Below the pieces are notes generated by a model, which made no database searches, was not told where the DNA came from, and saw only the letters and a list, made by a program, of their open reading frames with translations. DNA of 64,000 nt, from positions 5,556,719 to 5,620,718 of the forward strand of contig RPFO01000667.1 in assembly GCA_009746045.1 (NCBI GenBank), read 5' to 3'. Made by a program: the position numbers and the translations under genes. Below are positions 18,421-64,000 of the stretch, one piece after another. The first letter of the stretch is position 1. Every line of letters begins with the position of its first letter. Origin of the DNA: Mesostigma viride. Its lineage: Eukaryota; Streptophyta; Mesostigmatophyceae; Mesostigmatales; Mesostigmataceae.

Positions 18421-18460
18421 TGAATTTAACAAACGCTCTTCAGCAACATCAAACTCAGCA

Positions 18461-18970
18461 ATGGTTCAAACCGGCACTGGAAAAAAAAAAAAAAAAAGAA
18501 AGAAACTATATCTTGGGGACGACGATGATGATCAGCGTCGTCCGCCAGACAACAGGGCACCGGCTGATGTCGGTGCGCCTGCATGCAATAACAACAAAAC
18601 AAAAAGAAGACAAGGAAAAAGAAAAAGAAAAAGAAAACAAAAGAACAACAATGACAATACCAGCCAGGTGGAGGGTCCGGCTGCCGCGAGGCAGTCCAAA
18701 CAACCCCCCTCCCCTGTGCGCCAGCCGGTGGCGGAGCCGGTTCCCCTACGGCGCACCGAACAACCCTCTTCCCCGGCGGCTGCGACAGCAGCACCCACTG
18801 CTGGAGCAGCCATGGCGGCGGCAACGCGGCAGGAAAACAACCCCCCAGGAGGCACCGGCTCCGCGCCGGCCCCTGGGGCTTCCAGCGTAAGCAAGTCCGT
18901 TGCTTTCTTTCCTCATGCATGCTCTGATATAATGCTCAAGAGCGGTGGCTATCTTTTCAACATATCATAA
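18461..18970 (+). CDS. Copia-like gag N-terminal ORF
   Basis: A 169-residue ORF starts 40 bp after the 5' LTR. It opens with a poly-lysine tract from an A-run (residues 7-15), then DDDDD, a K/R/N-rich stretch (about residues 43-66) and a Pro/Ala-rich second half. It looks like an RNA-binding or nuclear-targeting N-terminus of gag. No capsid fold is recognisable. The A-run invites slippage, and the track may be separated from the zinc knuckle (24 kb) by introns or decay. Confidence 0.5.
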   Translation: MVQTGTGKKKKKRKKLYLGDDDDDQRRPPDNRAPADVGAPACNNNKTKRRQGKRKRKRKQKNNNDNTSQVEGPAAARQSKQPPSPVRQPVAEPVPLRRTEQPSSPAAATAAPTAGAAMAAATRQENNPPGGTGSAPAPGASSVSKSVAFFPHACSDIMLKSGGYLFNIS

Positions 18971-19454
18971 CCAAACAGAAAGCTATCGCTGCAGCATGAG
19001 GAGCATAGAAACGCTCCAGCTGTTATGTGATAAAAGCACTCCTGCCGGCCTATCCCCATCGCCGGCGGTGGGCGGCCTGGGCTGGACGGCATATGCAAAC
19101 GAGACAAGTATCACCGTCCACCCCAACGTGAGTTATCTGAATGAATGTCATGTCTTTTGAACGCAGATCTCCCCATTTTATTTGGGATGAGTGTAAGGGT
19201 ATTGTTGCTTTCTATGGCAGCACAGCCTCTACCCTCTAGGGAGACTGTTGATCCTCTCTATGTCAGGGCTGAGGGCCCTTAATCAAACCCACTGCTGTCA
19301 ACTCCCAAGACATGGAGCTTGCCCAGCAGCCGCACATAATCAATAACGCATGCAGTAGTGGCAGAAGCCATTACCAAACGCATGTACTTGCGGGTAAAGA
19401 CATGGCTGGTGCTAACGCTCAAGCAGCACCGGGAGGCAATAACAAGAAATACTA

Positions 19455-20204
19455 TTAAGATCACTCAGCTCCCAAGAAGACCAGCATTTGATTGAATACA
19501 ATAAGTGCAGCCCTGCCACAAATGCAGCAGTTAACAGTGGCCTTAAGGTTTCTCAATCCGCACGCGGAAGCAAGAAGCCTCCAGCAGGGTGGGAGGGAGG
19601 GGAAAGAAACAATTGCGGATCATTGCCTGCCTAGCTTGCATGGCCCGCCGACACACAAGCTGACATCATCCTAAATTAATTAACACCGGCATGCGTCACA
19701 CACCGGCCTGAACAGTGCTGAAAACGCCACTACAAACAGCGTGGCCACGCACCCCCAGGCTAGTGCGTTAACCGTACAGGTAGTTGTACAAGGTTCCCAA
19801 GACTGACAAACATAAAACGCGCCCATCGACCCCTTGGGCCGGTCCGAATCCACTATACAATAATTAATCACGACTCACTAAATAACCCAAATCAGCCAAA
19901 GATTCGGTAAGCAACCAGCCGACCCTACAGGTCCCCACCTAACCTCAGCTGGTGCAACCAAACACGAATCTTTGCAAGTGAAGTCGTATAAAACCTACAA
20001 TTAATTTTCTCGGACCGCTAATTAACAGCCACCGACCCTTATAAACAACCGGGTCATCCAAGGAAAATTCGGGCGAGCAGGAAACCCTTTGAACAAATCG
20101 AATTAGTCAGCCCATGTCGCAGACAGCCTTCCACATCCAGGCCAAGGCATGGCGGCCTTATCTTTCCCGCATGCGTTAATTAAACTATATTCAGAGAAAA
20201 CCGA
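19455..20204. repeat. Tandem duplication, unit 1 (compact)
   Basis: The unit begins ATTAAGATCACTCAGCTCCC and ends ...TTCAGAGAAAACCGA. Its segments recur in the same order in the next unit at 20205-20333, 21178-21365 and 22438-22858. Here the first two are joined by only 19 bp (GCAGGGTGGGAGGGAGGGG), so this copy either lost or never had the 840-bp stretch at 20334-21177. Confidence 0.9.
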
Positions 20205-21365
20205 TTAAGATCACTCAGCTCCCAAGAAGACCAGCATTTGATTGAATACAATAAGTGGAGCCCTGCCACAAATGCAGCAGTTAACAGTGGCCTTAAGGTT
20301 TCTCAATCCGCACGCGGAAGCAAGAAGCCTCCACCCAATTACCCCCCCCTGGCGCCAACCCCATTGCGCCGATTAAACTCATAACCACCGTGCGCGAAAG
20401 AGCGTGTCGCAATTAAAAAAAACAGGCGACTCAGCCCGCGCTAGGCTATATTAACCCCCGCAGGGGCCCGCTGGTTACAATGCGACACAAGCCGGTGACC
20501 ACCCCAAAAGCAAGCCCTCAAAAAGAGCCAGCATTTCGCAATTCCGGAACCGTCCAAAAAGGAAAGAGGTTTTACGACACCATAATAGACTGAGCCGCGC
20601 AGCAGGTGCTGAGACGAAAAGGAACGACAAAGGTCTGGCGTAGCCTCGCCTCCCTGAGACGCCCTCCCCAACTCGAGTCTCGCAATAGGGAAATTTCTAG
20701 CTTCGGAGCGCAACTCTCGCGCGGCTCCTACTGTCCCCAACCATGCACCCCTCCTCGGCAGGGGCAGCTGGACAACTGACCTGCCGCCACAAAAAATAAT
20801 TTATGAAAAAAACAGGCCGTTGCTGACAGGAACCTGGTTCAGGACCTTTTGAGTCCAGGTCACGTCCCACGCTGCCACCATCGCAAGGTGGCAAGCCTGC
20901 GATGTGACACTAGAGCTGTTTTAGAAACTTATAAACAGTTCCGCCGAAGCTGGCCAAACCGCCGGAGTAGCGCCCCATCCTTCGCCCATGTCAAAAAGAC
21001 CCGCAGCCGGGGAAAACGACATGGGGGTAAATTTAAATTTTCTTTCCGTTGCACGACCAACTATACTATGCTTGGTCGAACAACTTAGCGGTTGTGCCAC
21101 CATCTGCCTCGGCTACAAGACAGATGCAACCCGCGCTAGAATGTGCAATTTTGCACAGGCGGCCATTACCGCCATTGTGAAAGAAACAATTGCGGACCAT
21201 TGCCTGCCTAGCTTGCTTAAGGCATGGCCCGCCGACACACAAGCTGACATCATCCTAAATTAATTAACACCGGCATGCGTCACACACCGGCCTGAACAGT
21301 GCTGAAAACGCCACTACAAACAGCGTGGCCACGCACCCCCAGGCTAGTGCGTTAACCGTACAGGT

Positions 21366-22438
21366 ACATACAGTCATTCCCGCGTTAAGTTGCGATCGCC
21401 CCCTAAAACTTGGCGCCGCAACTTAACGCGGGAACGCAACTTAACGGTAGAATTAGGCTAGCAGCCCACCACCTCCTCCTCTGACGGACTTCTATACGTC
21501 ATTCGACAGCTCTCGTCAAGCCCGATCCAGCTGCAGCGTCAAAGCCGGCCAAAGTCCATTTTCCAGGCCAGATATTTTGGACAAAGGCGGGCTGCAAAAC
21601 ACGCGGTGCCTGCGTTTTATACTACAAATGTGTGGTTTAACCCTCTGACTTCGGCTCTCTTTTTGGCAGGTTACTTACTTAATTCAGTGCCAGCCGGCTC
21701 CACGTTTGATTGTGACAAAACATGGGAACAGTGGTGAGGGAACTGAGCTCCATTTACTGTCAACGGCCTGCATGTAAACAATGATAATAACAGCATGGAG
21801 GCCACAGTCATAGTGCAGGCAGCGAGACTGCCTGTGGCCTCAACCACCTTGTCTTTGCCCCCTTCAGTGGTGCATTCGGCATGATGGTGGTAATTTCCGG
21901 CAAGATGTCTCAATTACCGTAACAGACCCTACATGGTCGTGGATTCTTATGTACCGCAGCCCGCAGACTGCAAAACTGAATTTGTAAGGTTGCATTCGCG
22001 CTTTCACCTAAGCCAGCAGGCGGGTAAATTTGCGCGCCAGTGGGGCTTGCGTATTTTGCCGCCTGAAATCCCGTAGCGGGTCCGGACTTGGAAAAAAATG
22101 GCCTCCTGCGCGGCCAAAAATGGCCTGACACCTACAATTAATTAATTAATTATCAACATCGCTCCGTTGGGAGTCAATGTAGCGCATATCCCTGAGAAGG
22201 GGCATATGGCTTTTAATACATCCTAGGCTACTTCATGCAAGGGTGGGAATGTAAGCTACCCTTGCTCTAGGTGCACCAGGGCACCTGCACCCTCATGACA
22301 CCTACAAATTGAGTCATTACCGCGTTAAGTTGCGATGGCCTCCATGCTTAAGTTGCGGTCGCCCCCCAAACGTCGGCGCCGCAACTTAACGCGGGAACGC
22401 AACCTTAAGAAACGCAACTTAACGCGGGAATGACTGTA
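21366..22438. mobile_element. 1.07-kb TIR element inside copia-like element
   Basis: Terminal inverted repeats of about 24 bp (CAGTCATTCCCGCGTTAAGT at 21370, mirrored to 22436) lie next to TA. The empty site exists in unit 1 as CAGGTAGTTGTACAAGG (19778-19794). Four extra bases (CATA) lie at the left edge. Subterminal copies of AACTTAACGCGGGAA occur at both ends. Inside is a minus-strand LINE 3' tail (22139-22310). No transposase is seen, so it is non-autonomous. Confidence 0.85.
22139..22310 (-). mobile_element. LINE 3' UTR/tail copy (minus)
   Basis: Reading the minus strand: GGTGCACCTAGAGCAAGGGT, GCATATGCCCCTTCTCAGGG, a diverged GCGCTACATTGACTCCCAAC motif, then an (ATTA)n tail. It matches the plus copy at 29400-29560. 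Only the 3' end is present. Confidence 0.85.
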
Positions 22439-22861
22439 GTTGTACAAGGTTCCCAAGACTGACAAACATAAAACGCGCCCATCGACCCCTTGGGCCGGTC
22501 CGAATCCACTATACAATAATTAATCACGACTCACTAAATAACCCAAATCAGCCAAAGATTCGGTAAGCAACCAGCCGACCCTACAGGTCCCCACCTAACC
22601 TCAGCTGGTGCAACCAAACACGAATCTTTGCAAGTGAAGTCGTATAAAACCTACAATTAATTTTCTCGGACCGCTAATTAACAGCCACCGACCCTTATAA
22701 ACAACCGGGTCATCCAAGGAAAATTCGGGCGAGCAGGAAACCCTTTGAACAAATCGAATTAGTCAGCCCATGTCGCAGACAGCCTTCCACATCCAGGCTA
22801 AGGCATGGCGGCCTTATCTTTCCCGCATGCGTTAATTAAACTATATTCAGAGAAAACCGAA

Positions 22862-23155
22862 CAGAAAACAAACAAACAAAACTGTTACCAAACCATGGTT
22901 GGTGTTGAGGCAGCACAGCAGATGCTGTCCTCCCACTACAAACAAACAAACGAAACGGTTACCAAGCCATGGTTGGTGTTGAGGCAGCACGGCTACTGTC
23001 CTCTCACTACCAACAAACAAACGAAACGGTTAACAAACCATGGTTGGTGTTGAGGCAGCACAGCTACAGTCCTCTCATTACAAGCAAACAAACGAAACTG
23101 TTACCAAACCATGGTGATTTTGAGGCAGCAAAGATACTGTCCTCTCAATCAATAC
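22862..23155. repeat. ~70-bp tandem repeat related to coding sequence at 24.3 kb
   Basis: Four units of about 70 bp, each with CAAACAAACGAAACGGTTACC, ATGGTTGGTGTTGAGGCAGC and a CTGTCCTCTCA end. The same phrase occurs once in the pol frame at 24318-24350, coding DFEAATLLSSQ. The array therefore looks like amplified coding sequence with CAAA inserts. Confidence 0.85.
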
Positions 23156-23156
23156 A

Positions 23157-24239
<1,083 letters not shown>

Positions 24240-25260
24240 GTTCTCTCACCTTGCTTACTCTGAGGATGATGATCTCATTAACATTGCATGCATGGGATGG
24301 CAGCCAGGGCATAATTGACTTTGAGGCAGCAACCTTACTGTCCTCCCAACACCCTGTACTGGAACCTTACATAAAAGCACTAACCCCCACTGTTGACAAC
24401 TCCATTGATATCAAGGAGCTTGCTCACCAGCTGCACCTAGCCATGGGTCATGAAACAGTGGCTGAGGAACTGGCCAGACGGCTGGGGGGTAGTAGCATAG
24501 GTAAACCACTCAGAAATGCAGTAAAACTGGCTAGACAACACTGTCGAGAATGCCCAAAACCTCAAAAATGGCATACTGCAACTCCCTCCACCACTAGAGC
24601 TAGGCATGCATGATAGTGGGGGATGTAATGCACATCAACAAAGATGTCCAACCCTACCTGATCCTAAAAGACTCATGGTCCAGGTTCACAGTCATGGAAC
24701 CCCTATCTGGCATGTCTGCCGGGCAGCTACGTGTGGCACCCATGATTGCTTTACCCAGATTCTACCCAGTTGACAGAATTTTGCTTGATCAACAATTTTC
24801 TTGTCTGACTGACCTGGAAGGGTGTGAAGCAATAGAGATTGCTGGGCTGGAAGATCATGAGGGTCAGGGGGTCATTGAAAGAACCATCAGATCTGTCAAA
24901 AACCTACTAGCCAAAAATCCCTCCAAGGATGCTACTTCAGGGGTCTATTGTGACAGGGCACTCTGGTGTCATGAAATGTGCTGACAACCCTAAACATGAG
25001 ACCTGTCCTGCATGCCAAGTGGGGTGAGGTAATCCCAGAAGGACTGCAGGCATGCAGGTGTATATCCCCCAGAGGTGATAGCACTGTACAACACTGCACG
25101 TGCACAAACCTCAGCAAAACTGGCAGAAAAAGATAAAACCCATCCCAGGCCAGTATTCCAAAAAGGTGATCAAGTCCTCTACTACAAGCGAGAGTGCCTT
25201 CACAACCTGGGGATAGCTTAACCAGGCACGAGGTAGCTGGTCTGGAAGCACATCAGACCC
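24240..25260 (+). pseudogene. Copia-like integrase
   Basis: The N-terminal HHCC zinc region reads HLAMGH...CREC (24428-24555). The catalytic core in the next frame has GDVMHI (first Asp, 24619), RILLDQQFS (second Asp, near 24780) and EGQGVIERTIRSVKNLL (Glu, near 24860-24905). A C-terminal piece reads FQKGDQVLYYKRE (25160-25195). Integrase inserts the cDNA. Frameshifts near 24600 and 25000 and a TAG near 25220 break it. Confidence 0.8.
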
Positions 25261-25379
25261 AAGGCACCAAATTGTCTGCCAACCCTCCCGCTCTGAGGTC
25301 AAGATTGGCAGTCGCCTTGCAAGCACTACACAGGTCACATAAGCAACAAGCTGCTGTGGCCGAAGGGCTGGCAAAAGTC

Positions 25380-25720
25380 TCAGCTGTGTGCACTAGTCAG
25401 GACCCCTGGACCCTGGCAATAGACACTCAGGCACAGGTCAGTGTGATCAGTGCACAAGCCATCCCTGGTCTTGAGATTGCACCTTCTCCTTGGGCACGGG
25501 TGCAGGATTTCTCAGGCCAAAGCTCACTGGATGTAGTGGGACAAGTGTTAATTCCTATACTTGGTATTCAGACACCCTTCCAGGTGGTGGCAGGGTACTC
25601 TTGTAACACCTTGTTGGGGGACCTTTTGTATCCTATCCTGGGGTGCTTATCTCAGCTAATGAGCTCAGTATCACAGGGGTGGGTGCAGTTCCTCTGGACC
25701 ACTTTAAAATCCCTCTCTCC
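25380..25720 (+). pseudogene. Retropepsin-like aspartic protease, downstream of integrase
   Basis: The frame reads WTLAIDTQAQVSVISAQAIP (25408-25467), then DVVGQVLIPILG and, near 25600, NTLLGDLL. This is the retropepsin layout of an active-site loop (DTGA-like, here DTQA), a glycine-containing flap region and a terminal LLG. The Gly-to-Gln change in the active site should inactivate it. In ordinary copia elements the protease precedes integrase; here it follows the integrase C-terminal piece. A frameshift occurs at about 25640. Confidence 0.7.
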
Positions 25721-25959
25721 AGTATTGTCCCTGGTATGGATGCTGTCATCAAGGCAGTCAACACTCAGTATGCACCAGGGGAGATCCCTGATCTGGACAA
25801 GTTAGTGCACAGCCAGTTCCTCCATCCCTCCCAGCTGGCCTTTGGGCTGGGTAAGTGGGACATAGCCATGCACTCACCCCAACAAATCTCGCACGTCATA
25901 CAGGAATGCAAAACACAAAAATGGTTTACCAAGTGGCTGATGGCCATTGTCCACCAAGC

Positions 25960-26850
25960 CACTGAGGCAGGAATGGGTCCTGCCCAACCCCCAAAACCCT
26001 CAATACAAACCGCCTGTCACCCCTTCATGGGATGTGCCAGAGGGATCCAAAAAGCTCAGATTAAAATTTGTTCTCAAACAAAAACCACAAAAAGTGGGCT
26101 CCCCAATTTTCCATGCCAGACCATGTGTCACAGAATTAAAGGGGACCTCCACACTGCCAAAAGGGGAAACTTACACTCCTGGGCTGCAACAAACCTCACT
26201 CATGAATCAGGATCATGCTCTCCCTATTCCTCCACAACCTCAATGCAGGCCAAGACTTTGTCTGCAAAGCCACTGATATTAAAAGGGCCTTCCTCAGGGG
26301 GGACCCAGAAAAGGCTGAATCTGTGTGGAAAGGGAAGGTGTACGTGGTAGACACCCCAGCTGTGTGGAAACCTTACATTGATGAGCCCCACCTTATCATC
26401 AACATTGGGGTGGAAGGGCTTGTCAGTGCCCCCAAAATTTTCAGAGACTCAGCAGAGGAAGTATTCAAAAAGCTCAAGGCCACGTATGATGACCTGGACC
26501 CATGCTTTTTTGTTGTACCCACCCCCTCTGGACTGCTGTTCTTTGTGTGGCATGGAGATGACCAACTCATTTGTGGGCCTTAGAGAGCTGAGGTGGAAAA
26601 ATTTATTCAGCAGGTCCAGGAATCATATGAGATTGGCAAACAGGTGGAATTGAGCACAACCGGCCCCATCCAGTTCTGTGGCATCATGTTGCAGCTGCAC
26701 AGGCAGCAGGATCAGTGGGTCTGCTCTCTCTCTCCTCCTGCAGAATATATTCAAGATTGTCTAGATCTGCTGCAACACAACTACCTCCCCCTACACATGT
26801 GTGCCACTGTTCAGGGTGGTGGTCAGCCATCTGTGGGGCTCCCTTAGCTG
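25960..26850 (+). pseudogene. Copia-like reverse transcriptase
   Basis: Finger region: KLRLKFVLKQKP..., HARPCVTELKGT, GETYTPGL (26050-26190). After a frameshift, motif A is ATDIKRAFLRGD (26264-26300), followed by VWKPYID and GLVSAPKIF. The catalytic box is FVWHGDDQLICGP (26543-26581), HGDD in place of the copia YVDD. TAG follows at 26581, and the connection region continues in another frame. It matches the second element at 62.4-63.4 kb motif by motif. Confidence 0.85.
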
Positions 26851-27389
26851 TCATCAGCAGGGTCACCCATGATGTTCTAGTCAAAATCAAATGCAGTCAA
26901 ATCCTCGATGGTCTGAATCTGATGGAAGACATTCACATCCACAGTGTCATGGATAGCTCCATGGAGAGCAGAACGATCAATCAGATGGGGGCAGCCTCGG
27001 GAATCAGGGCTGTTTTTCTCACCAACAGGTCAGATTACATGTCCCTCACTTCCTGGTACAGCAGACTACACCGCAGAAAACCTGGCAGCAGCAACTCAGC
27101 TGAATGTCGTGCTGTGGTGTCTGCTGCATTGCATGCACGTTCCCTGCAGCACATGCTCACCTGGTTACAAACCCAGGCAGGCAGCACATGTAATGTCATC
27201 TCACATCTCTATACTGACAGCTACTCTGTGATCAGTTTTCTAACCAAGAACTCTGTTTCTGCTGCTGTCCACACTGACCTGGATTGGGTGATCCTCAAAC
27301 AGGAGGCCACTTACTTTTCCAGCTGGACTCATGTGGACGATGAGGACAACCCAGCAGACGCCCTAACGAAGCTGCGGGATGCTGCTTGA
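26840..27389 (+). CDS. Copia-like RNase H domain
   Basis: Motifs: HSVMDSSMESRTINQM (catalytic Asp), SWYSRLHRRKPGSSNSAECR (Glu), LYTDSYSVISFLTKN (Asp) and a C-terminal NPADALTKLRDAA, the usual end of copia pol. It removes the RNA strand during reverse transcription. This last segment is open to TGA at 27387. It is cut off from RT by the upstream stop and frameshift. Confidence 0.85.
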
Positions 27390-27829
27390 CTACAGTACCA
27401 GCTCCTCTTTGAAAACATGAACCCCTATGGGATCAGAGTCAGTGTATGAATAAATGTATGGCCACAGCTCAGTACACAACCACCACACCCCCCTACCACA
27501 GCGATAGCTGCTGGGCGCCATAAAATTCAACACATTTTTGCTGTGGGGTGTGAGTGCTGACTAGGTCAGATTTCTATCCATTTGAAGCTTGAGGGCACAA
27601 GCCTTGTATCCACTTTATTTTATGTGTGCTCCAATACCTGGCAAACCAAACCAGCCAGCTGTGTACACCTTATTTAATGTGCAATCTAACACCTGGCCAG
27701 AACAGCCAGCTGTAACCAACCTGGCTCAACCAGCCATGTCTCTTTTGTACCCCTAATCAACTTAAAAACAATAACAATAATGTTGGGGGTGCAGACCTGC
27801 ATAAGAAATAAAGAATAAAACAATACTGG
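27390..27829 (+). other. Copia-like 3' untranslated region
   Basis: 440 bp between the pol stop and the 3' LTR. It repeats the phrase ACACCTGGC..AACCAGCC two or three times. The purine stretch AAGAAATAAAGAATAAAACA just before the LTR is the likely polypurine tract. Confidence 0.6.
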
Positions 27830-28314
27830 AGTTAGTCTCCATGCTTTGCTGCAGACTAAGTCTCAAAGGCATTGTGAATACAACGTATGAATAAGCCTTG
27901 TAAACCTACGTTGGTATGTGAATATAAATACCACGTGGGCTATGCAGATAGGAATGCTAGTCGAGTCGCATACGTTTCCCTAGATAGGTACTTTGGGTAC
28001 TGGGGTACGTGACAGATGTCAGTACCCAATATACGTAGTGTCCTGTCATTGGACGGTACTAGAGTATCCTAGATAGGGATCGTACTGCAGCGTGCATTGA
28101 TCTGTGATCACACGATGCAGTGACTAGACTGCTACCTGTCATCGTGCGGCCTCGGGCCAACGGTCTGCACCCAACGGTCACTGGCGGCGCGGCCAGTGAG
28201 AGGAACGTTGATAAAGGGTAAACCTATTTTCTAATGAACCAAGCAATTCATTGCTCACAGCTCACAGTGCTCTCAATTAGCATTATACCAAGGTATCACA
28301 TTCGTTTCCTAACT
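27830..28314 (+). repeat. 3' LTR of copia-like element
   Basis: 485 bp, same termini as the 5' LTR (AGTTAG...CTAACT), followed directly by the target duplicate GCCAT (28315-28319). It differs from the 5' LTR by small indels (for example GACTAAGTC against GACTATAAGTC) and substitutions. Confidence 0.95.
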
Positions 28315-37988: not shown

Positions 37989-40406
37989 GTGCTGGCATTT
38001 ACTAGCTGCATGGAAAGAAGAGCGATGGCGCACGGTCGAGGCAAGGAACCTGCCCTCGAAATAGACTACGATGACATGTCAGAGTCGGAGTACGAAGAGG
38101 CCAAAGCACGACATCTTGCTAGCTTGGAGTTAGATGAGGATGCCGACAACAATGACGGTGGGGACGAGGAGCCTACTGGCCCCGACAACAGTGGGGACGA
38201 GGGGGGAGGTGATTCAAAGCCGGCCAAGGCTACCGTTTGGGAGTTTGTCAAGAAGGAGCGCATTGTAGTCAAAGGCTTGCTGACGAACAACTACAAGCAA
38301 TCCTGCCTTCAGTGCGGCGCAACCTGGAGGGGAAGCGCCACTAGGGCAAAGCTCCACATCGTGGGCCCGCCTTGGTGCCGGGATGTGAAGCCTTGCCCCA
38401 ATCCGCCGAAGGTATATAAGGCGCATTTGCAGGGGATTTTCAGGGCCGCGGACCTGAAGAGGCGTGGCCAAGCGGACCACATGGAGCTCGTGACCAAGCG
38501 GCAGCGACTCAACTGTGATGGCCTCGTGGAGGGCAGCGCCTCTGAGTGGCACGACGCCCAGGTTGGCTCTTCACAACAGCACAGCTCGAGCAGACCTGAG
38601 GCATCCGAGGAGGGCCTGACCATACCGCAGATGATGAAGCTGGACAAGCTGCAGCTGGACCTTGCACTGTGCAAGGGTATGATTTCTGCTGGTATCCCTT
38701 TCAATGTCCTTAACAATGATGCCTTTCGTGCTGCATTGACCAGCATCAGCCTGGGGGGGGGGCCTTGGTCAAACTCGGCGGGTACAAGCCGCCCGCGCCC
38801 ACCACGATGAGGACTCGCGACGTCCCCCTTGTTGCCGCCGAGGTGGAAGCGCAGGTTGTTACTCGCCTGGAGCTGGCCAACACCACGGGTGGCACCCTGA
38901 TCACAGACGGGTGGAAAGACTGCTCTGGCAATTCGCTGATCATGACTGTGTTTCAGCTGCCAGACTTTGTGTACTTCCTAGGAAGCGACAATGTCACCGG
39001 CAGGACCAAGACTGCCGCCTTCCTCACGGAAACCCTGCAGCCCCACATCGAGAAGATCACTGCAGGCAAGGTGGTGCAGCTGATTACGGACACCGCGAGC
39101 GTCATGGAGCTGATGAAGCGCAAAATTGAGGAGATTTATCCGAACATCATTATCTCCCAGTGTGCATCGCACAAGCTGGACCTCCTGCTGGAGGACATCG
39201 CCAAGGTGGACCCCATCAAGAACGTGCTGGAGCAGGCACAGCAGGTGGTGGGCTACGTGCGGTCCCACGAGAAGGTCAACCATCGCATGATCAATGCCGC
39301 GCCTGGAACCCTGGAACTCAAGAACTACGGCGAGACCCGGTTCGCCACGAGGTAACACAATTGTATATGCTTTATTGAATGCTATTGCTATTCAAGCTTG
39401 CCTGCTAGTGCTTCAGTGCTACTTGCCGGTTGCCTTCCCATTTTCCACAAGCCTTGTTTTCCATTGATGCCTGATGCCGGCTACTTGCACATCAATCCGA
39501 CATCTCTCTCCTTTCTGCTTGTGGGTGGGCAACATTGCTGCCTCATACCCCCTGTCCAACGCTTGCATGGCCAGGTACCTTTCGGCCATGAGTGTGCAGC
39601 AGAACATGACGGCGCTGATGATTACCTTCAAGGACGCTGCGTTGGAGAAGTACGCCATGCTGCAGCGCTGGGCAGTGCCGTGGGCGACCATCAAGGCCAT
39701 AGTCTTGTCCCCAGCCTTCTGGGCCAACCTGGACATGGTCGTGACCATGTTTAAGCCTATGCACGAGGTGCTGCGGCGCACCGACACCAACACGCCCTGC
39801 ACGGGGTGGCTGTACAACGCCATGGCCGACCTCCGCACGCAGCTCAAGGAGGTGGCTGCGCTGCCGGCTGAGCTGGCAGAGGAGCTGGATGGCATTGTGA
39901 TGACTCGCTGGGAAGAGCTGCACTCTCCCATTCACGCTGCAGGGTACCTGCTCAACCCAGCCTTCTGGATGGTCGACCCCCGCGGGCACGAGGCTGAGAT
40001 CAAGGAAGGCTTTCTCATCTGCTGCCGCAAGCTGCTGTCATCCTCCAAGGTGGCCCGCGCGATGAGCCAGCTCACCCAGTACCACACGAAACGTGGCAGC
40101 TTCGGCGCCCCAGAAGCCATTGCGGCCGCTTTGCATGTCGCAAATGGCAAGCTGGAGCCGTGGGAGTGGTGGATGACGTGGGGAGATACCACCAAGGAGC
40201 TGCAGGACGTGGCGATGAAGGTGCTGGCCCAGCCGGTCTCCAGCGGTGCTGTGGAACGTGTCAACAGCAGCGCTGGGTGGATCAAGAGCCTGCGTCGGAA
40301 CCGGATGAGCCACATCATGCACAACAGGCTCATCAGCACACACCACAACCTGCAAGCTTTATCAAAGCTGAAGGAGATTTCCGATGAGGATGCCCTGGAG
40401 GCATAA
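37989..40406 (+). CDS. hAT transposase (BED finger, DUF659, hAT dimerisation)
   Basis: Exon 1 (37989-39351) has an acidic N-terminus, a BED-type zinc finger (CLQCGATW...KLHIVG, near 38307-38365), and a DUF659-like core: GGTLITDGWKDCSGNSLI, LITDTASVM, CASHKLDLLLEDIAKV, ending ETRFATR. A run of ten G at 38752 shifts the frame between the two parts. The intron 39352-39574 is GT-AG and joins RFATR to YLSAM. Exon 2 (39575-40406) has MITFKDAALEKYAM, PAFW and the C-terminal VSSGAVERVNSS dimerisation region, ending at TAA. It cuts and pastes the element. Apart from the G-run it looks intact. The upstream Met could be 37989, 38010 or 38025. Confidence 0.9.
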
Positions 40407-43975: not shown

Positions 43976-45437
43976 CCTAGCAAGGTACTTAGCCTGAGCC
44001 TTTTGGTACCCTGAAATCGCGTGATCATGTGCATTTTCATTTTATCTAGCAAGGCCTGTACACCTTCTACAGTATCCCGGGACACATCGTCCCTGTCCCG
44101 TAAAGGACTAGCTAAGAGAGAGGTAGGAGTAAGAGGCTGTCTACCAGTATCTAGGAAGAAAGGCGTATAGCCATGCGCAGCCTGGGGCAATTGTTAAGGG
44201 AGAACTCTACCAAGCATAGATAATCCTCCCAATCACTCCCGAGCCATTAACATAGTGCCTCAGCGCTTCTTCCACTACCCTATTAAGACGCTCTACTAGA
44301 TGAGAGGAGGAGGAGTGGTAGGCAGTACCGAAGTAACCTTGGTACCGATAGCAGCGAAAAACTGCTGCCAAAAGTCAGAGGTAAATAGCTTATCTTTATC
44401 ACTAATAAACTGCCTACTCAAACCATGATATCTATATACGTTATTAAGGTATAGGCGTGCGCAATCGCGTGCGGTGAGTTCTAAGGGACACGGCACGAGA
44501 TGACACATACGAGTAAAACGATCTACGAAAACAAGGATCTGGGCGTTACCTCTATCATTCTTCCTAAAAGGTCCTACAAAATCCATCATAATGGAGTCCC
44601 ACGGCATGATGGGATCAGGTAGGTCCTAGGTTCTGCTATCTGTCCTACATTGTTGGGTTTCATCTCCTGGCAAGATTGACAGGTTCTAACATACTCATCT
44701 ACATCCTTTAAAAGGGAAGGCCAGTAGTAAGAGCGGGCTACTAGGTCCCGTACCCGTTTACCACCCTGATGAGCAGCTAAGTCATGCAACTCAAAGAGCA
44801 AGGAGGAGCGACAGATAGGAGGGACATACAGGCGCCATTGAGGGGGAGAATCTGCTATCTGCACATATAAAAACCCACCTACAAATTTACAAGGGTGCTT
44901 GCCTAATTGTTGGGGATGGGCAGCAATGGCAGCTAAAGCTTCCGGCTCAGTGGCCGTAAATCTACTAATAAGGCGTTCAAGATCAGAGGTAGGCATCGCT
45001 ACAGAGGTATCCAGAACAGGTTTAAAGAGGTCTCCTACCGCCTTGCCAAAGAGAAGGGGAGGTCCTAGAGGGACTATGTTATCATAAGACTTTCCTGACC
45101 TAGTCGCTATATGGCTAAGCGGTATAGAAATTTTATTTTTCCCCTCCCCCCCCACCGAGGCCACAGGAAGGGCCTCACACGGGAGAGAGAGTCCTACGTG
45201 AGAAAGGAGATCAGGCATGCGAACAGCTGTATGAAAGAGGTAGGCATAGGATTCATCATCAGGTAGTTCACCATAAGGGGTTACACCCATAGTAGTAGGA
45301 ACTAGAGTAGTATTGAGAACATCAAGGTCCTCGAAAAAGGAGTAATCTGCGCGACGGGAGAGTGCATCTGGTACTATGTTATCTACACCCTTAACATACT
45401 GAAGTTTAAAAGGGGAAAACTGTGCTAAAAACTCCAT
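43960..45437 (-). pseudogene. Chromovirus integrase
   Basis: HHCC zinc domain: ELHDLAAHQGGKRVRDLVAR and CQSCQEMKPNN (about 44660-44790). Core: DSIMMDFVGPF (first Asp), QFISDKDKLFTSDFW (second Asp), and HLVERLNRVVEEAL in another frame (Glu, about 44265-44305). Frameshifts near 44600 and 44310 break it. The segment also carries the end of the RNase H/connection upstream (QYVKGVDNIVPDALSRRADY). Confidence 0.9.
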
Positions 45438-46702
45438 CCAGCGCGCTTGACGAGGGGTAAGGTTGGGTTGGAGAGAAGATGGGTAAGGGGACGGTGATCC
45501 GTCTGGATAACTAATCTATAAGGATCTATCTCACAGGGTTCATTCAGGCAAACATCAAATTGAGCACCTTTAAGAAAGTGCTGCCACGCGTGGCAACAAT
45601 ACACCACAGCTAAAGTTCCTGCTGGTGTACGGGATAGTTACGCTCCGCAGGGAGCATTGTCCTAGAGATATACTCAATTGGCTGTAAGCCCTGACCCTGA
45701 TCCTGGAGAAGGACGCCCCCTATAGCTACCTTACTAGCGTCTGTAGCTACCACAAAGGGTTTAGTAGTATCCGGTAGGATGAGTACGGGAGGGAGAGGAG
45801 TAGGGATTTTAGACACTGAAAAGCCGACTGACATTCACTACTCCAAACAAAGGGGATATCCTTCTTTAATAAATGATTAATAGGGGCTGCTATAGTTGCG
45901 AAACGCGGGATAAAACGCCTATAGTAAGAAGCAATCCCTAGAAAACTACGTACACCTTTAACGTCGGTAGGGGTAGGCCATTCCTGAATTGACTTAGTTT
46001 TATCCGGGTCGGTAGCGACCCCGGCATCTGACAGAACGTGCCCTAAAAATGGGACACTCCTACCCGAACGAACTTTAGCACGGCGCGCCCACAAAGAATT
46101 TTCAGCCATTATTTCTAATACTTTCTTTAAATCACGTAGGTGCGTTTCAAAATCAGGAGAGTAAATAAGGATATCATCTAAGTAAGCTTGAGCACAAGAA
46201 CGGTCATGCTCAGATAAAGAAACAGAGGAGAAGGAAGGATCCTTTAAATCAGAGGACACTTGAGGAAGGTGAGAATTCCCATAACAGGTCTAAGCACTTC
46301 ATTCATTAACATTTGAAAAGAGGCAGGAGAGTTACAGAGTCCCATAGCCGCTACTCTAAACTGGTAATGACCAAAAGGGGTAGCAAAGGCGGTTTTATGG
46401 CAATCCTCAGGAGCTATACGCAGTTGCCAAAAACCATCCGCACAATCCAGTACTGTGAAACAGGTGGAACCTTTAACCTTATTAAATATATCATCAATAC
46501 GAGGTAGAGGGTATTTAGACTTCACAGTAATATCATTTAACTTCCTATAATCAGTAACTAGGCGAAACTTGCCATTTGGCTTAGGAACTAACAGGACACC
46601 AGCTGAGTAGGGGGAGTTACTAGGCTCTATCAATCCTGCTTCTAATAGTGACACTAAAATCTGTTTTAGTTCCTTTAATTCGGTAGGGCCCATTCTATAC
46701 AT
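45434..46702 (-). pseudogene. Chromovirus reverse transcriptase and RNase H
   Basis: RT: VPKPNGKFRLVTDYRKLNDI, CFTVLDCADGFWQLRI (motif A), PFGHYQFRVAAMGLCNSPAS, and the catalytic box AQAYLDDILIYSPDF in the next frame (46170-46210). Then FLGHVLSDAGV and WPTPTDVKGVRSFLGIASYY. RNase H: PFVVATDASKVAIGGVLLQD (catalytic Asp), QTDHRPLTHLL. Frame changes at about 46250, 45790 and 45600. Confidence 0.95.
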
Positions 46703-46737
46703 CGGAGAGTGCGTAGGAACTGCACCGTCCTTGATAA

Positions 46738-47472
46738 CTACACGGTGTAAAACAGAACGAGGAGGAGGATAAGAAGGAGTCTTTTCTTCAAAACTTTTGA
46801 GGAATCTATCACAGCCATGTATCTTACTATTTCATTTTCAGTAAATCCCACTCCTATTGTATCCACTGTGTTTACATCTATATCCACACTATTATTAGTG
46901 ATAGGTATCTCCTGTACTTCTAACTGAAGGAACATACATAATAGGTATCCATATTCCTTTAGTTCAGATCGCAATTCATCATTGGACATTAATACTTCAG
47001 GTATAGGTCTTACAGGAGGATCAACAGGTGTAGGAGGAGTAATATCTACCAAGGATAAATTTTCTAATCTATAATGACGTTCCGGTACCCAGTAAGAGCT
47101 ATCTGGAAACCAAATGACCATGGTATCATAATTAATAGTAATCTTATTATCCTGGTGCCAATCTAATCCTAGTAATACATCAGCTGTAGTGATAGGGCCT
47201 ATAGTGGCCGTCAGGTTGACCGTACGTCCTTGTATGACCAGGGGAAGGGACACCGTACCCGGGGAATGACTGGTGCGACCGTCAGCATAATGGACAGTGA
47301 CAGTTTTTGTGTGAGGGATAGGGACTAGTCCTAAACGCCTAACTAGGGCCTCGCTCACAAAGGAGCTAGCCGCACCGCTATCCACTAACACAGAGACATT
47401 CAAAAGTTCATCAGCATGCAAGAAGGGGTCTACAACAGTATGGGGAACGGTTAAGCCACCATTCAAGAACAT
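46738..47472 (-). pseudogene. Chromovirus aspartic protease
   Basis: Active site VSVLVDSGAASSFVSEALV, then HYADGRTSHSPGTVSLPLVI and ADVLLGLDWHQDNKITINY, a retropepsin with intact DSGA and terminal LLG. It is separated by frame breaks from gag above and RT below. Confidence 0.92.
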
Positions 47473-58519: not shown

Positions 58520-58524
58520 CCGTA

Positions 58525-59483
58525 AGTTAGGTTAATATTGTGCGGAAACCTTTTTGCCACTTGGGCTTCTCAGGTTCCGCACAATATTACCCTAACTAAA
58601 ACCTAGCCTCTTGGGGCGAGGACGAATCACTAGGCTCGGAACACCCGTAGATATGAATATGATCGAATATAAGCAACTCGTTGGTGCAAATATCGATATG
58701 AATATGATCGAATATGAGCATCTCCTTGGTGCGCATATGATTAGAGCCGGGTGCCAAATCGGAACGAATTATTCCCCAAATAATCCGCTTCCGAGTGGAT
58801 TCGAACCTGCGCCCCGCAAGGATCCAGGTCTTAGTTAGGTTAATATTGTGCGGAAACCTTTTTGCCACTTGGGCTTCTCAGGTTCCGCACAATATTACCG
58901 GCGATAACCACTCGCCGGACACTCAAGTTCACGACGTCGTGAACTTGAGTGTCCGGCGAGTGGTTATCGCCGGTAATATTGTGCGGAACCTGAGAAGCCC
59001 AAGTGGCAAAAAGGTTTCCGCACAATATTAACCTAACTAAGACCTGGATCCTTGCGGGGCGCAGGTTCGAATCCACTCGGAAGCGGATTATTTGGGGAAT
59101 AATTCGTTCCGATTTGGCACCCGGCTCCGGCTAATCATATGCGCACCAAGGAGATGCTCATATTCGATCATATTCATATCGATATTTGCACCAACGAGAT
59201 GCTTATATTCGATCATATTCATATCTACGGGTGTTCCGAGCCTAGTGATTCGTCCTCGCCCCAAGAGGCTAGGTTTTAGTTAGGTTAATATTGTGCGGAA
59301 ACCTTTTTGCCACTTGGGCTTCTCAGGTTCCGCACAATATTACCGGCGATAACCACTCGCCGGACACTCAAGTTCACGACGTCGTGAACTTGAGTGTCCG
59401 GCGAGTGGTTATCGCCGGTAATATTGTGCGGAACCTGAGAAGCCCAAGTGGCAAAAAGGTTTCCGCACAATATTAACCTAACT
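58525..59483. mobile_element. Palindromic-LTR miniature element, array of three terminal repeats
   Basis: 959 bp between perfect 5-bp duplications CCGTA (58520-58524 and 59484-59488). Layout: terminal repeat 58525-58597 (core-deleted, 73 bp), segment S 58598-58832, terminal repeat 58833-59038 (206 bp, perfect palindrome), S inverted 59039-59277, terminal repeat 59278-59483 (206 bp). Each repeat begins AGTTAGGTTAATATTGTGCG and ends with its complement ...CCTAACT. S contains a tRNA B-box-like GGTTCGAATCC 25 nt from the repeat edge. It has no coding capacity: the matching 78-residue ORFs on both strands are by-products of the palindrome. Confidence 0.85.
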
Positions 59484-59489
59484 CCGTAG

Positions 59490-60170
59490 TTTGGCACATA
59501 GCCAGGTAGCCTAATTGACATTTAGCTACACCCTTGGCTAGTCATGCGCAACATATACCGCGCGCGCGCACTAGTGCCATTTTGGCCCCTTGCGGCATGT
59601 TGGCATGTGTTATATGGCATGGTCTCTTGTTTTATCACCTGGGTATGGTGCATTATGCCCATTTGGGCATCCCTTGTTGTTTCATGCCAATTGGAATAAA
59701 GTTTTGTGTTGTTATGCTACCACTATTTATACCCCTGCCAGCTGGCACCGTTATAACGGTGCCAGCTGGCTTTGGCCATTTTGTAGCTAGCGTTCACAGC
59801 TTTGTGACATTTCATGTTGTGAATGCATTGATGGCATGTCTATGATTATAATAACCTGCCTTTAAAAGGCCAGGGCCAACTGATTTGTGTAAATGGTCGA
59901 TAATGCATTATATATGTCTCCAACCCCAATAACCCCATGTGCACTGTACCCCCCTGAGGGGGGTGCTATTTTATATAGCAGGTGTAGGGCATGGATATGT
60001 GACCAACCAAATTTCCCAAACATTATTTGATATAAAAGCATGCTCGGTTCCAAGGGTGGGCCAGAAAATGTTATTTGGCTAAAGTTACTCTCAGGCGCAC
60101 AAAGATACCCACACTCAGTCCGTTCTCGTGGTTCGAGTTTTGACAGTTGAGGGGTTAACCAATAGAGTTG
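59490..60170. other. Unassigned 0.7-kb region
   Basis: Apart from the 34-bp palindrome and a CCCCCTGAGGGGGG inverted repeat at 59949, nothing identifiable was found. ORFs are short and unsupported. Confidence 0.45.
59737..59770. repeat. 34-bp perfect palindrome
   Basis: GCCAGCTGGCACCGTTA followed immediately by its reverse complement. It could form a long hairpin. The neighbouring sequence (59.5-60.1 kb) has no recognised gene. Confidence 0.95.
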
Positions 60171-60179
60171 TGAGGGTGA

Positions 60180-61732
60180 GAATGCCACGAATTCCGCCAT
60201 GGTTCTTGCAGGAAGTTGCCTTTATTAATAACAAGGAAACACAGATGTAAGTCACGTCACTTCCAAGACTGCACGCAGCACAGACGACAGGGTCGCAGTG
60301 CCAAGAGAACGTGCACGCAAGAACTAGCGTCCCGGTGTGACCAAGTCACTCATATAGCTTGCTAGGGACGCGTCCAAGTATTCAGCTGCACTGTCACAGC
60401 TGAACTGTCAATCAATTGATTACACAGACTCTGGCACGCCTTTGGCGCGCAGATCTATCAATTGTCCATACGGCTAGTCCTGTGGACCTACCCGTACACT
60501 AGTCAGCATCAATTGTCTCATAGGTCCTGGCGCGCTACAGCACGCCTACCTATCAATTGACCATCAAGTCCTGTACAAGTCCTGTCAACGTCCTGCGGAC
60601 TATCAAAGTGACACTTGTACATCCTGTGTCCGTACGCGCCCACAGTGGCGCGCCGGGTACTGTCGGCACAGCCTAGGAAACGTCATAACTTTTACGTTCC
60701 TTAACCAAATGAGGCGTTCAAGGTGCCGTTGGAAAGAGCGTAACAATCTCTATCCATCTAACGTAAATCCTTTACGTTAACTCCAATCCCTTCTTTTCTT
60801 TAGGGATTACATCCCCTGCCAGGGACCCTTGAAGTAGCTTGAAATGTCCTTCACTCCAGCTTGAAGCTTGAACAGATGTCTTTAATGGCCAATGCCATTC
60901 CCCCAGCCCTTTCTTTTAAGGAACTGGAAAAGAAACAGATCTGCCACAGGGAAAACCATTCCATGAGAAATGGATAAAAACCTATGGAAGTGGCATTACA
61001 GAGTACCACCAGATATTAGAAGCACACAAAATTAAATACATACAGGTTAATTCTATGAGGTCTTCTCCAGGAATTAATCCCATCACCTCGGTAGAGCCTC
61101 CAGTACAATGACCTTCTGGCGGTGAGTTACATTAATCCCAGATACTAATCCCATAAAACCCAGTACATATTCAATATAAGTACAATAAATCCATGACAAT
61201 TAAAATACCACTTGACAAAGTAAGGCGTATTACAATAGTTTGCCTGTCATTCTCTCAACAGGGGTCTATTGGCGCCCGTCTTACGGCGCCCGTCTACTTG
61301 CCAGATGGTAAACTGCCACAGCAAACAAATGACAAAATGAAAACACATAGGCAACAAGTAAATCCTGCCCTGGGGAACTAGGGAAGTCTGAACAGGCAAA
61401 CACCTGAACAGGCCAGCTTGTAGAAACATAATACCAGGGAATCGAACCCCGCCCTATAAACCCCAGAATAAAGGTTCCCAGACCATTGTGAGAAGTATGT
61501 ACAAATATACATTTCTTTTAAAATAGAATACATGGCCTGTAATGGACCTGTCAACCTTGTGTAGTCAACAGCATGAACCCCAGCCAAAACCTGGCTGTAC
61601 CTGATTAAAATCAGAGTGAGTGTACCATGGTCCATGAGCCTTAGTACAGAGTAAGATACAGGTATTATGCCAGTCACAATGCTGACACTACCACACAATC
61701 TGCTCTCCAATGCCCTATAACCAGGCCCCAGC
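60180..61732 (-). other. 3' region and probable LTR of second copia-like element
   Basis: It lies downstream (minus strand) of the RNase H domain. TTTATTAATAACAAGG (60220) gives AATAAA-type signals on the minus strand. Four copies of an ATCAATTG-centred motif at 60412-60560, spaced about 45-55 bp, look like LTR promoter subrepeats. LTR boundaries could not be fixed because the partner LTR is not in the window. A B-box-like GGGTTCGATTCC lies on the minus strand at 61437-61448. Confidence 0.45.
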
Positions 61733-62476
61733 TTAGACAGCTTGCTGAGATGGGTCCATCAGAGACTGAAGAACCTTGTATTGCACTGCTGCCTTCTGCA
61801 CTAGCTTGGTCAAAGCATCAGCAGGATTGTCAACCCCAGGGATATGCTCAATATTGGCCAAGGAGGACAATTCCTTAAGAAGGAGATAATCCAAGTCCCT
61901 ACTTCTGGCCATCTGCCTGTGCACAAACTGCACCATCCCCATGGAGTCTGTTTTTAGAAGAGTGGTAACCTGAAGTGGCCAAGGAGTGTTAGAAGTCATC
62001 TGATGAAGCAACTCCTTCAGATAAAGGCTTGTGTGAATGCCTTCACAAATAGCCCTGCATTCTGCCACATCACTGCTGACAGCCACCCGTTTGTGCAGGC
62101 GACTAAACCAGCTCACCAAACTCCCCAGGCCTTCCTGTCTGAGCACAAAGAGCCCTGCAGCCCTGCCCCTGACCTTGGAGACCTGCCTGCTGTCCATTGA
62201 GCTATCCACATACAGCTCCATGCAAATGGGTTGTGATAAATCCACTGCAGACAACAGAATGCCAGATGAAGCCCTGACCTGATCAGCCACCTTGGCAGAC
62301 CCTAGCTCCACCAGCATGTCATCAGGCAACCTGGCTATGACCATAAGATCTGGCCTGGAAATGCCTGCCACCCAAGCAACCATGCCCCTCACCATGGGAC
62401 ACAGTGCCTGTGTGATGGTTGGAGGAAGCTTGCTAATGAGGGTCTCTTGATAATCATTGCCCCCCACCAGCAGCAT
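61733..62476 (-). CDS. Second copia-like element: RT connection and RNase H
   Basis: 247 residues ending QKAAVQYKVLQSL...QQAV. Motifs: MELYVDSSMDSRQVSKVRG (catalytic Asp), SWFSRLHKRVAVSSDVAECR (Glu), LLKTDSMGMVQFVHRQ (Asp), NIEHIPGVDNPADALTKLVQ. They align with 26.95-27.38 kb (DSSMES, SWYSRLHRR, NPADALTKL), so both elements belong to one clade. The RT ORF overlaps its start in another frame. Confidence 0.88.
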   Translation of the reverse strand: MLLVGGNDYQETLISKLPPTITQALCPMVRGMVAWVAGISRPDLMVIARLPDDMLVELGSAKVADQVRASSGILLSAVDLSQPICMELYVDSSMDSRQVSKVRGRAAGLFVLRQEGLGSLVSWFSRLHKRVAVSSDVAECRAICEGIHTSLYLKELLHQMTSNTPWPLQVTTLLKTDSMGMVQFVHRQMARSRDLDYLLLKELSSLANIEHIPGVDNPADALTKLVQKAAVQYKVLQSLMDPSQQAV

Positions 62477-63390
62477 ACGCCACTCCCCCCCTTCTTCACC
62501 AGTGTGGCCTCCATGCCCACAAACAGCAGAGGCTCATTCTCCACCTGCCATTGCTCCCTACCCAGAGGAAACTTGGACTTAATGATGGTGATCAGCTCCT
62601 TAAGCCACGACGTGGGAGCTATCAGATGTAGGTCATCCCCGTGCAGCGAAGCATACACTGGCAGGCCTTCCCATTGCCCCAGAAACAGACAGGGGTCTAC
62701 AGGAGAGACCTTCAAGTTGCAATGTTCCTTCAGGAAACGGTTGAGAGTCTCCCTCCAGATTATTGGACTTGACCTCAGGCCCTCCAGGCCCTTGAGGATT
62801 TTAAGGAACTCCGTGTGGATGTCCCTTTTCCATACAGCAGGCACCCTAACATAGAAAGGCGTCTTGCCCTCCCACTTTTCCTGTGCCACATCTGCATCCC
62901 CCTCTAGAAATGCCCTCTTGAAGTCTACCACCACTGAGCCATAGTCCAAGCCCTTGTTGAGAAGGCCTAGAAATACACACAGCAGCAGCCTCCAAGTATC
63001 ATGCAACATGCCAGGGGTATACAACTCCTCAGCAGTGCACTCACCAGTACCCTTGAACTCATTCAGCACTGGCCTGACATGTGGTACCTTGACCCCGTCC
63101 ACCTCCTTCATCTTGATGACAAACTTGAGCTTGAGTAGACGTCGTGCAGGAGGCAGGTCATTGACAGGTTCCACGCATTTCTTGGAGATCCAGTCCTCCC
63201 CAGATTTAATCAAACCCAGTGTGACCTGGGGACACATAATGGGAGAGGACATGAGCTTCACCAGGCCTTGGTAGTTGATAGGGCTGTGTCCAGCAAGTGA
63301 GTGAGGACCAATGCCCAAACTGCTTGGATGACTAGCAGCTGGCAATATGAGGTCATCAACCAAGGGCTCCTGCCCCTGGCACACTTGCAC
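62389..63390 (-). CDS. Second copia-like element: reverse transcriptase
   Basis: 333 residues: LLKLKFVIKMKEVDGVKV, VRPVLNEFKGTGEC, EELYTPGM, motif A SVVVDFKRAFLEGDADV, VWKRDIH, GLRSSPIIW, and the catalytic box PVYASLHGDDLHLIAPTSWL (HGDD, about 62620-62680). This copy is better preserved than the first element. Its upstream part (integrase, protease, gag) is absent because a palindromic element starts at 63458. Confidence 0.9.
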   Translation of the reverse strand: MQVCQGQEPLVDDLILPAASHPSSLGIGPHSLAGHSPINYQGLVKLMSSPIMCPQVTLGLIKSGEDWISKKCVEPVNDLPPARRLLKLKFVIKMKEVDGVKVPHVRPVLNEFKGTGECTAEELYTPGMLHDTWRLLLCVFLGLLNKGLDYGSVVVDFKRAFLEGDADVAQEKWEGKTPFYVRVPAVWKRDIHTEFLKILKGLEGLRSSPIIWRETLNRFLKEHCNLKVSPVDPCLFLGQWEGLPVYASLHGDDLHLIAPTSWLKELITIIKSKFPLGREQWQVENEPLLFVGMEATLVKKGGSGVCCWWGAMIIKRPSLASFLQPSHRHCVPW

Positions 63391-63457
63391 ACGCTTAACC
63401 GACCTGGTTACTGCACGTGATAGGTGAGTGGTCCTGAAATTAATCAGTGGGACCTGA

Positions 63458-64000
63458 AGTTAAGTAATGCAATACGCATTACTTTTGCATACTTGCAAGT
63501 ATGCAAAAGTAATGCGTATTGCATTACTTAACTAAAATTGGGCCGCGTGGGGAAATCCGGCGTTCCGCACACACCGCTCGTTACCGAGGTGACTCGATTA
63601 ATTACGACTCGGCTATTCCCAGCCTCGCGCCGTAATTCCTATTTCGACTTGGCCTACCCGGCCTCCGCCAAACATAGAAATCCACAAATATTTCGACTCG
63701 GCCTCCCAGGCCTACCCGCCGCAAATATTTCCGTGCCTCCGAGAGGATTCGAACCCGGTACCCCAGGAGCGAACGCCAATCTTAGTTAAGTAATGCAATA
63801 CGCATTACTTTTGCATACTTGCAAGTATGCAAAAGTAATGCGTATTGCATTACTTAACTAAGATTGGCGTTCGCTCCTGGGGTACCGGGTTCGAATCCTC
63901 TCGGAGGCACGGAAATATTTGCGGCGGGTAGGCCTGGGAGGCCGAGTCGAAATATTTGTGGATTTCTATGTTTGGCGGAGGCCGGGTAGGCCAAGTCGAA
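63458..64000. mobile_element. Second palindromic-LTR miniature element (runs off window)
   Basis: Terminal repeat P at 63458-63533 and 63784-63859, 76 bp each, a perfect palindrome beginning AGTTAAGTAATGCAATACGC and ending with its complement. Between them is a 250-bp segment S (63534-63783), which reappears inverted from 63860 to the window end. The palindrome centred at 63821.5 therefore reaches at least 63643-64000. S contains GGTTCGAATCC 28 nt from the P edge. There are no genes; the 63538-63789 ORF is fortuitous. Sequence is unrelated to the 58.5-kb element except for the termini and the B-box motif. Confidence 0.85.

Follow-up and report, generated by a model that had tools for sequence, protein, structure and literature searches.

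How can an element whose terminal repeats are perfect palindromes be copied, and how do such repeats stay perfect? The question is raised by positions 58525 to 59483 of the window (the whole 64,000-nucleotide stretch of Mesostigma viride DNA analyzed here), which read P(73 bp)-S′-P(206 bp)-S-P(206 bp) between two copies of CCGTA. The P copies at 58833 to 59038 and 59278 to 59483 are identical, each is its own reverse complement over 206 bp, and arms of 103 paired bases far exceed chance occurrence. S′ and S are one segment in inverted copies on either side of the central P. Self-comparison of the sequence bore out the preliminary description, which had reported terminal repeats of 73, 206, and 206 bp, the 206-bp ones perfect palindromes, and an internal segment in opposite orientations, all within a perfect CCGTA duplication. 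The parts are as follows.

58520 to 58524, no strand: left target site duplication, CCGTA
58525 to 58597, no strand: short outer P, 73 bp, P positions 1 to 67 joined to 201 to 206
58598 to 58832, minus strand: S′, inverted internal segment, 235 bp
58833 to 59038, no strand: central P, 206-bp perfect palindrome
58841 to 58897, plus strand: inner hairpin of the P arm, 58841 to 58855 pairing with 58883 to 58897
58934 to 58937, no strand: ACGT centre of P (P 102 to 105), site of broken junctions in other copies
59034 to 59047, plus strand: A-box-like sequence TAACTAAGACCTGG spanning the P/S border, with a counterpart in family 2
59039 to 59277, plus strand: S, internal segment, 239 bp
59064 to 59074, plus strand: B-box-like sequence GGTTCGAATCC, then [AT]CTCGGA[AG]GC as in family 2
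59269 to 59277, plus strand: S end CTAGGTTTT, complementary to the S start AAGACCTGG, with TTTT at the P border
59278 to 59483, no strand: right outer P, 206-bp perfect palindrome
59484 to 59488, no strand: right target site duplication, CCGTA

The P centre reads ACGUCGUG, and in copies elsewhere S is mostly 235 to 236 bp long. TAACTAAGACCTGG resembles an A box and GGTTCGAATCC a B box. ARAGORN found no tRNA in the 64-kb window, a scan of viral contigs gave no match to the S start, and Rfam matches over P, all below the curated scores, were put down to its hairpin shape.

Is the structure a mobile element? Family 1, to which it belongs, has hundreds of matches in this genome (440 Mb, 2,243 contigs). 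First-look candidates numbered 641 for P plus S and 330 for S, 40 being scored each time, and the outer P end, counted where the next base is not A, occurred 148 + 151 times versus 0 + 1 for the control, with the first 100 of these places listed. We read 20 loci of 6 to 9 kb, 20 of about 1 to 2 kb, and three of 8 to 9 kb. The preliminary description had looked to copies with 5-bp duplications, and the family has them: 43 of the 54 elements inspected (49 insertions, as the loci L053b/L024/L033, L058/L075/L076, and L065/L067 form three groups with common flanks) have matching flanks of at least 5 nt. The other 11 lack immediately matching 5-nt flanks. L059 and L060 are split by nested elements, with 5-bp duplications present over the whole span; L081 has clean ends and unmatched flanks (ATCTC/ATCTT); the end of another S precedes the element in L013; and one end is broken or interrupted in L023, L028, L036, L038, L041, L049, and L055. 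The right P of L055 is interrupted, near position 3599, by the start of an LTR similar to that of the element at 17925 to 28314 described below.

The commonest form among the fetched loci is PS′PSP (~1090 bp). Counting singles against inverted arrays, as the preliminary description had envisaged, gave 37 S′PS (PS′PSP) runs of 54, 12 runs with a single S, and five arrays that are longer or direct, at 51 loci; 34 of the PS′PSP runs are left once duplicates are removed. PSP singles, direct arrays, and solo-P-sized spans all occur. The PSP singles of L046, L063, and L024, like PS′PSP, have near-identical repeats at both ends, which cannot be told apart as direct or inverted because P is palindromic. 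A single PSP insertion, flanked by the same sequence each time, occurs on three small contigs (L024, L033, and L053, 5333 to 5979), so that the assembly contains duplicated or allelic sequence. An autonomous element with a palindromic LTR was absent from the loci read; two spans of about 8.5 kb between P ends, considered as autonomous partners, turned out to be PSP singles with Copia-like elements nested in P.

A second family, 4 kb from the window element, lies inside a Copia-like element, and the window holds a further LTR element.

17925 to 28314, plus strand: LTR element, ends AGTTAG...CTAACT, duplication GCCAT, weak RVT_2 match (0.014, under the cut-off)
60166 to 64000, minus strand: Copia-like element carrying the family 2 insertion, continuing to 68728, LTR ends AGTT...AACT
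63453 to 63457, no strand: left duplication CCTGA of the family 2 insertion
63458 to 64000, no strand: family 2 element, ending at window coordinate 64185 in L061

The family 2 element, P2 S2′ P2 S2 P2, covers 728 bp (63458 to 64185; 177 to 904 of L061), and P2 is a 76-bp perfect palindrome. It follows the plan of family 1 with unrelated P and S. Its insertion lies within the Copia-like element of 60166 to 68728, of which a ~99% identical relative in L060 preserves the empty site, with a single CCTGA and no insert. By eye, the two families have in common AGTTA...TAACT, AAGA..TGG, GGTTCGAATCC[AT]CTCGGA[AG]GC, and the final TTTT, and the P2 arms, too, begin with an inner hairpin in their sequence. 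In both, the S start pairs with the S end, with the same G opposite a T of the TTTT and with a compensating change between them (CC/GG in family 1, TT/AA in family 2). Central P lengths in family 2, judged by spacing among the matches listed, are 52, 63, 64, 76, 78, and 82 bp.

The structure is thus a genuine mobile element, and its integration is LTR-like. LTR ends of the form AGTT...AACT together with 5-bp duplications are found in the nested elements of L059 and L060 and in the window element at 17925 to 28314, and P ends likewise in AGTT...AACT. That these ends and duplications are common to three Copia-like families supports mobilization by Copia, and the other elements with AGTT...AACT ends in the loci read are Copia-like only; the element at 17925 to 28314 is a possible helper type. 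Matches to RVT_2 (Copia) are 3.4e-4 in L059 and 1.3e-3 in L060, both under the family cut-off, and 5e-7 in the window copy of the L060 Copia-like family, also under the cut-off. Among named sequences, the Copia fragment comes closest to a Mesostigma viride prediction (62%) and to Prorocentrum lima (59%), and a JGI contig matches at 98%. Elsewhere in the window, 39474 to 40406 encodes a hAT dimerization domain, and 44586 to 47472, from another retroelement, encodes retroviral-type protease and integrase zinc-binding domains.

On balance, the evidence leans towards a non-autonomous retroelement, probably mobilized by Copia, whose repeats and inverted dimers come from fold-back or end-to-end priming at the P centre. 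The RNA would start at the P centre with a half-P leader (A′), continue into S, and finish in UUUU at the S end. Its 3′ end would pair with the S start and prime DNA copying of the leader into arm A, which would begin with AGTTAGG. With arm A at the RNA end, the self-complementary ACGT would pair with itself or with a sister end, and extension would yield, in order, A-A′ (which makes a complete P), S′, and A. PS′PSP would result when ends pair a second time, in some elements probably those of two cDNAs, and integrase would insert the product by its AGTT...AACT ends, leaving a 5-bp duplication. In this scheme, fold-back would stand in for the polypurine tract and perhaps for the tRNA primer. 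By reading, neither family has a polypurine tract at the S/P border (GGTTTT/AATTTT at P); its absence, together with S ends that stay complementary as CC/GG or TT/AA, supports the fold-back model, as do the common plan of the second family and its empty site. As motifs, the A- and B-box-like sequences suggest RNA polymerase III. The P centre lies ~100 nt upstream of the A-box-like motif in family 1, a distance beyond the usual polymerase III start, which counts against the model.

What distinguishes fold-back from recombination between palindromes? The chief alternative is an ordinary TRIM with a palindromic LTR. Homologous recombination between copies of P would produce its inverted dimers, and mirrored variants would come from near-palindromes corrected during chromosome replication, the correction of quasi-palindromes being a well-established source of mutations. 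LTR recombination typically leaves direct arrays, solo-P-sized spans, and PSP singles, all of which speak for this alternative. Under it, the two kinds of inverted junction should be equally frequent. In family 1 (51 loci), S starts face each other across P at 40 junctions (37 without known duplicates), seven junctions are direct, and S ends never face. In family 2, the first 100 of 218 matches give 24 S-start-to-S-start, 25 direct, and two tail-to-tail junctions, as taken from match coordinates with duplicates kept and the intervening P and S unread. Over both families, S-start ends meet 64 times (61 once known family 1 duplicates are removed) versus two for S-finish ends, although these junctions are not mutually independent. 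The bias supports the fold-back model and speaks against palindrome recombination as the main source of the inverted form, which the preliminary description had offered. A founder PS′PSP copied as a unit would also yield such a bias within one family, but here it has the same sense in two unrelated families. Against the fold-back model, direct junctions in family 2 are as common as S-start ones, and the two tail-to-tail arrangements fit an ordinary TRIM. These two (C447 and C1413) are spaced, by coordinates, at exactly one P2 length in one and about 25 bp in the other.

The variants in P bear on the same choice. We sampled 41 loci (the window element, L039 to L058, and L062 to L081) with 121 full-length P, of which 108 are perfect palindromes; among 125 substitution site-copies in 206-bp P, 114 are mirrored and 11 one-armed. 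Subtracting three duplicate loci, which contribute nine P, leaves 99 palindromes of 112 and 105 mirrored site-copies of 116, with the same 11 one-armed. The mirrored variants occupy five sites only. Four variants, numbered on the left arm, make up 120 site-copies, of which 113 are mirrored: 43A, 100A, and 101C, each found in many elements, and 56C, found in the three P of L052. Five variants are confined to single P, 58G being mirrored and 19A, 25T (both in one P), 67C, and 73T one-armed, so that four of five private substitutions are one-armed compared with seven of the 120 other site-copies. L039, L079, and L081 carry a mirrored deletion of 1 nt per arm; non-palindromic length variants occur in L042, L048, L049, L054, and the central P of L039. 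Ten further 3-kb loci, outside these counts and including two that repeat known loci (L033 and L012), fit except for a one-armed change in one P of L022 and one of L023 and a non-palindromic length variant in each of L016 and L028. At the few sites that vary, the symmetry of P appears to be regained at some stage of the life cycle and not quickly in the chromosome. Mirrored variants beside one-armed private ones that persist support the fold-back model and are awkward for an ordinary TRIM.

Some elements appear to combine two molecules. The central P has unlike arms in L051 and L052, the outer P are palindromic yet unlike the central P in L040, L044, and L050, and left and right outer P differ in L040, L044, L050, and L051. 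These patterns favour two cDNAs joined at the centre in some elements, and since the outer P of mixed elements is often unlike the central one, copying must sometimes pass between molecules. This requirement and the differences between the S arms within L022, L050, L052, L058, L065, and L068 count against the fold-back model. An A-to-T change at S position 10 recurs in independent insertions (L022, L050, the L058 group, and L068), in one S arm or, in L050, in both. Random pairing of two RNAs as the origin of the A10T/T66C arm differences was dropped, as L058/L075/L076 and L065/L067 are single insertions.

In broken copies, seven junctions coincide with the four central bases of P (ACGT/CCGG), in L036, L038, L045, L049, L054 (two), and L068. 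In L038, L045, L049, and L054, unrelated sequence gives way to arm A′ at P 102 (ACGTCGTG or CCGGTGTG), and in L036, L054, and L068, arm A stops at P 105 and is followed by unrelated sequence. The L038 junction is exact only given a truly palindromic centre, a mixed centre shifting it by 1 nt, and the junctions of L022 and L028 lie within 1 nt of the centre. With 27 edges in P, 0.3 would be expected at two of 205 places and seven were seen (binomial 6e-9, for a place chosen post hoc and a hand list of about 28 edges). The centre junctions support the fold-back model, as they suggest an intermediate with its end at this point, and such exact junctions are unexpected for an ordinary TRIM. In L028, L038, and L049, the centre directly abuts host DNA with no duplication, so integrase did not make these joins, a point against the model. 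In L068 (568 to 655), three bases, 83 nt of a high-copy repeat, and then the last bases of S come after the centre. The 83-nt stretch has 100% matches at at least 39 other places (40 scored of 272 first-look candidates), and neither hmmscan nor comparison with L059, L060, L061, and the window gave it an identity. The junction looks like template switching, and the switch could perhaps have been onto a co-packaged RNA.

The short P forms are consistent with the fold-back model as well. The left P of the window element and of L016 joins P 1 to 67 to 201 to 206, the right P of L016 and that of L066 join P 1 to 65 to 198 to 206, and another short P occurs in L054. They can be read as products of arm-A copying that broke off early, after which the end paired via the inner hairpin and was extended to AGTT. 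With the polypurine tract absent as well, we consider an ordinary TRIM unlikely; the fold-back step at the P centre explains more than palindrome recombination does.

A hairpin-ended linear DNA replicon, copied by a parvovirus-like rolling hairpin and captured as monomers or dimers by a retroelement integrase, would account for the perfect palindromes, the mirrored arms, the inverted dimers sharing P, and the defined end at the P centre. Hairpins at both ends would, however, permit tail-to-tail dimers, an RNA-primed product accounts better for the complementary S ends with TTTT and the AGTT...AACT ends, and the small part of the genome read held no replication gene or autonomous form; such a replicon is decidedly unlikely. 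The preliminary description had also suggested an inverted concatemer of hairpin-ended DNA, which points in the right direction, but fold-back copying at the P centre explains more. Still less probable is a DNA transposon derivative (a MITE or foldback element with 5-bp duplications) whose inverted repeats became perfect: it would have terminal inverted repeats and be non-coding, of high copy number, and flanked by precise duplications, as here, but the ends match local Copia-like LTRs, the loci read held no transposase with such ends, and the direct arrays sharing P and the centre junctions would be left unexplained. Long perfect palindromes are difficult to assemble, but with dozens of loci in different flanks and matching 5-bp duplications, the family 2 empty site, and one PSP insertion on three contigs, an assembly fold-back artefact has next to no likelihood.

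If the fold-back model is right, a bolder claim could be made, which we put forward tentatively and would not be surprised to see fail. The elements may represent a class that replicates by rolling-hairpin reverse transcription, in which an RNA of half-repeat leader and internal segment suffices to rebuild whole palindromic repeats, priming by fold-back at the self-complementary 4 nt of the centre and using neither a tRNA primer nor a polypurine tract, and in which the normal integrated product is an inverted dimer with a central two-way promoter. Such a class would be an LTR-type element that lacks both standard priming sites and remakes its ends by fold-back, and its two repeat arms would evolve as mirror images. 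Retroelement replication would thereby be tied to the rolling-hairpin principle of parvoviruses, template ends and switches would be clearly legible in the sequence, and it would become apparent how normally unstable palindromes can spread genome-wide and stay perfect.

How do these elements compare with known systems? Parvoviruses replicate by a rolling hairpin, with palindromic ends, inverted dimers that share a palindrome as P is shared here, fold-back priming, and a nickase of their own. The palindromic ends, the inverted dimers sharing one palindrome, and the proposed fold-back priming are alike; the 5-bp duplications and Copia-like ends differ from a DNA virus with a nickase. Judged by titles and abstract openings, the literature search returned no palindromic LTR or inverted-dimer TRIM, and "palindromic LTR" led mainly to retroviral integration and LTR software.

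Like TRIM/SMART elements, the elements described here are about 1 kb or less, non-coding, with repeats at both ends and 5-bp duplications, and they form direct arrays and solo-repeat-sized spans and have LTR-type ends in common with local Copia-like elements. The 4- to 6-bp target site duplication of TRIMs is present (43 of 54 elements; the family 2 empty site). Unlike TRIM/SMART elements, they have a perfect palindrome as terminal repeat and the inverted dimer as commonest form, and no tRNA primer site was recognized in them; the S start, at the candidate position for such a site, reads AAGACCTGG/AAGATTGG. Repeat ends of the TG...CA type are absent, AGTT...AACT standing in their place as in three local Copia-like LTRs. 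Of the TRIM-like element in the preliminary description, an idea that likewise points in the right direction, the 5-bp duplications and LTR-type ends stand, and the polypurine tract is missing.

TRIMp3 elements (Helenus, Ajax, and Cassandra), in the part of Kojima 2024 (PMC10886601) covered here, come close: they are small and LTR-type, with tRNA-gene-like boxes and, in fungal and plant Helenus, 5-bp duplications. Helenus has a PBS and a PPT, and its tRNA-derived A and B boxes lie inside the LTR; here one motif spans the border of P and S and the other falls within S, so that they mark the beginning of the internal part. The terms "palindrom" and "inverted" are absent from the main text of that article. 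In Tf1/Tj1, according to the portion of PMC4600332 covered, a 5′ piece of the element's own RNA is proposed to prime at the usual primer site. Its own RNA is likewise the primer proposed here, from the complementarity of S start and S end, but it would be the 3′ end that primes, and the second strand, too, would be primed by fold-back. TRIMs and TRIMp3 are thus nearest in kind, and Tf1/Tj1 is nearest in self-priming.
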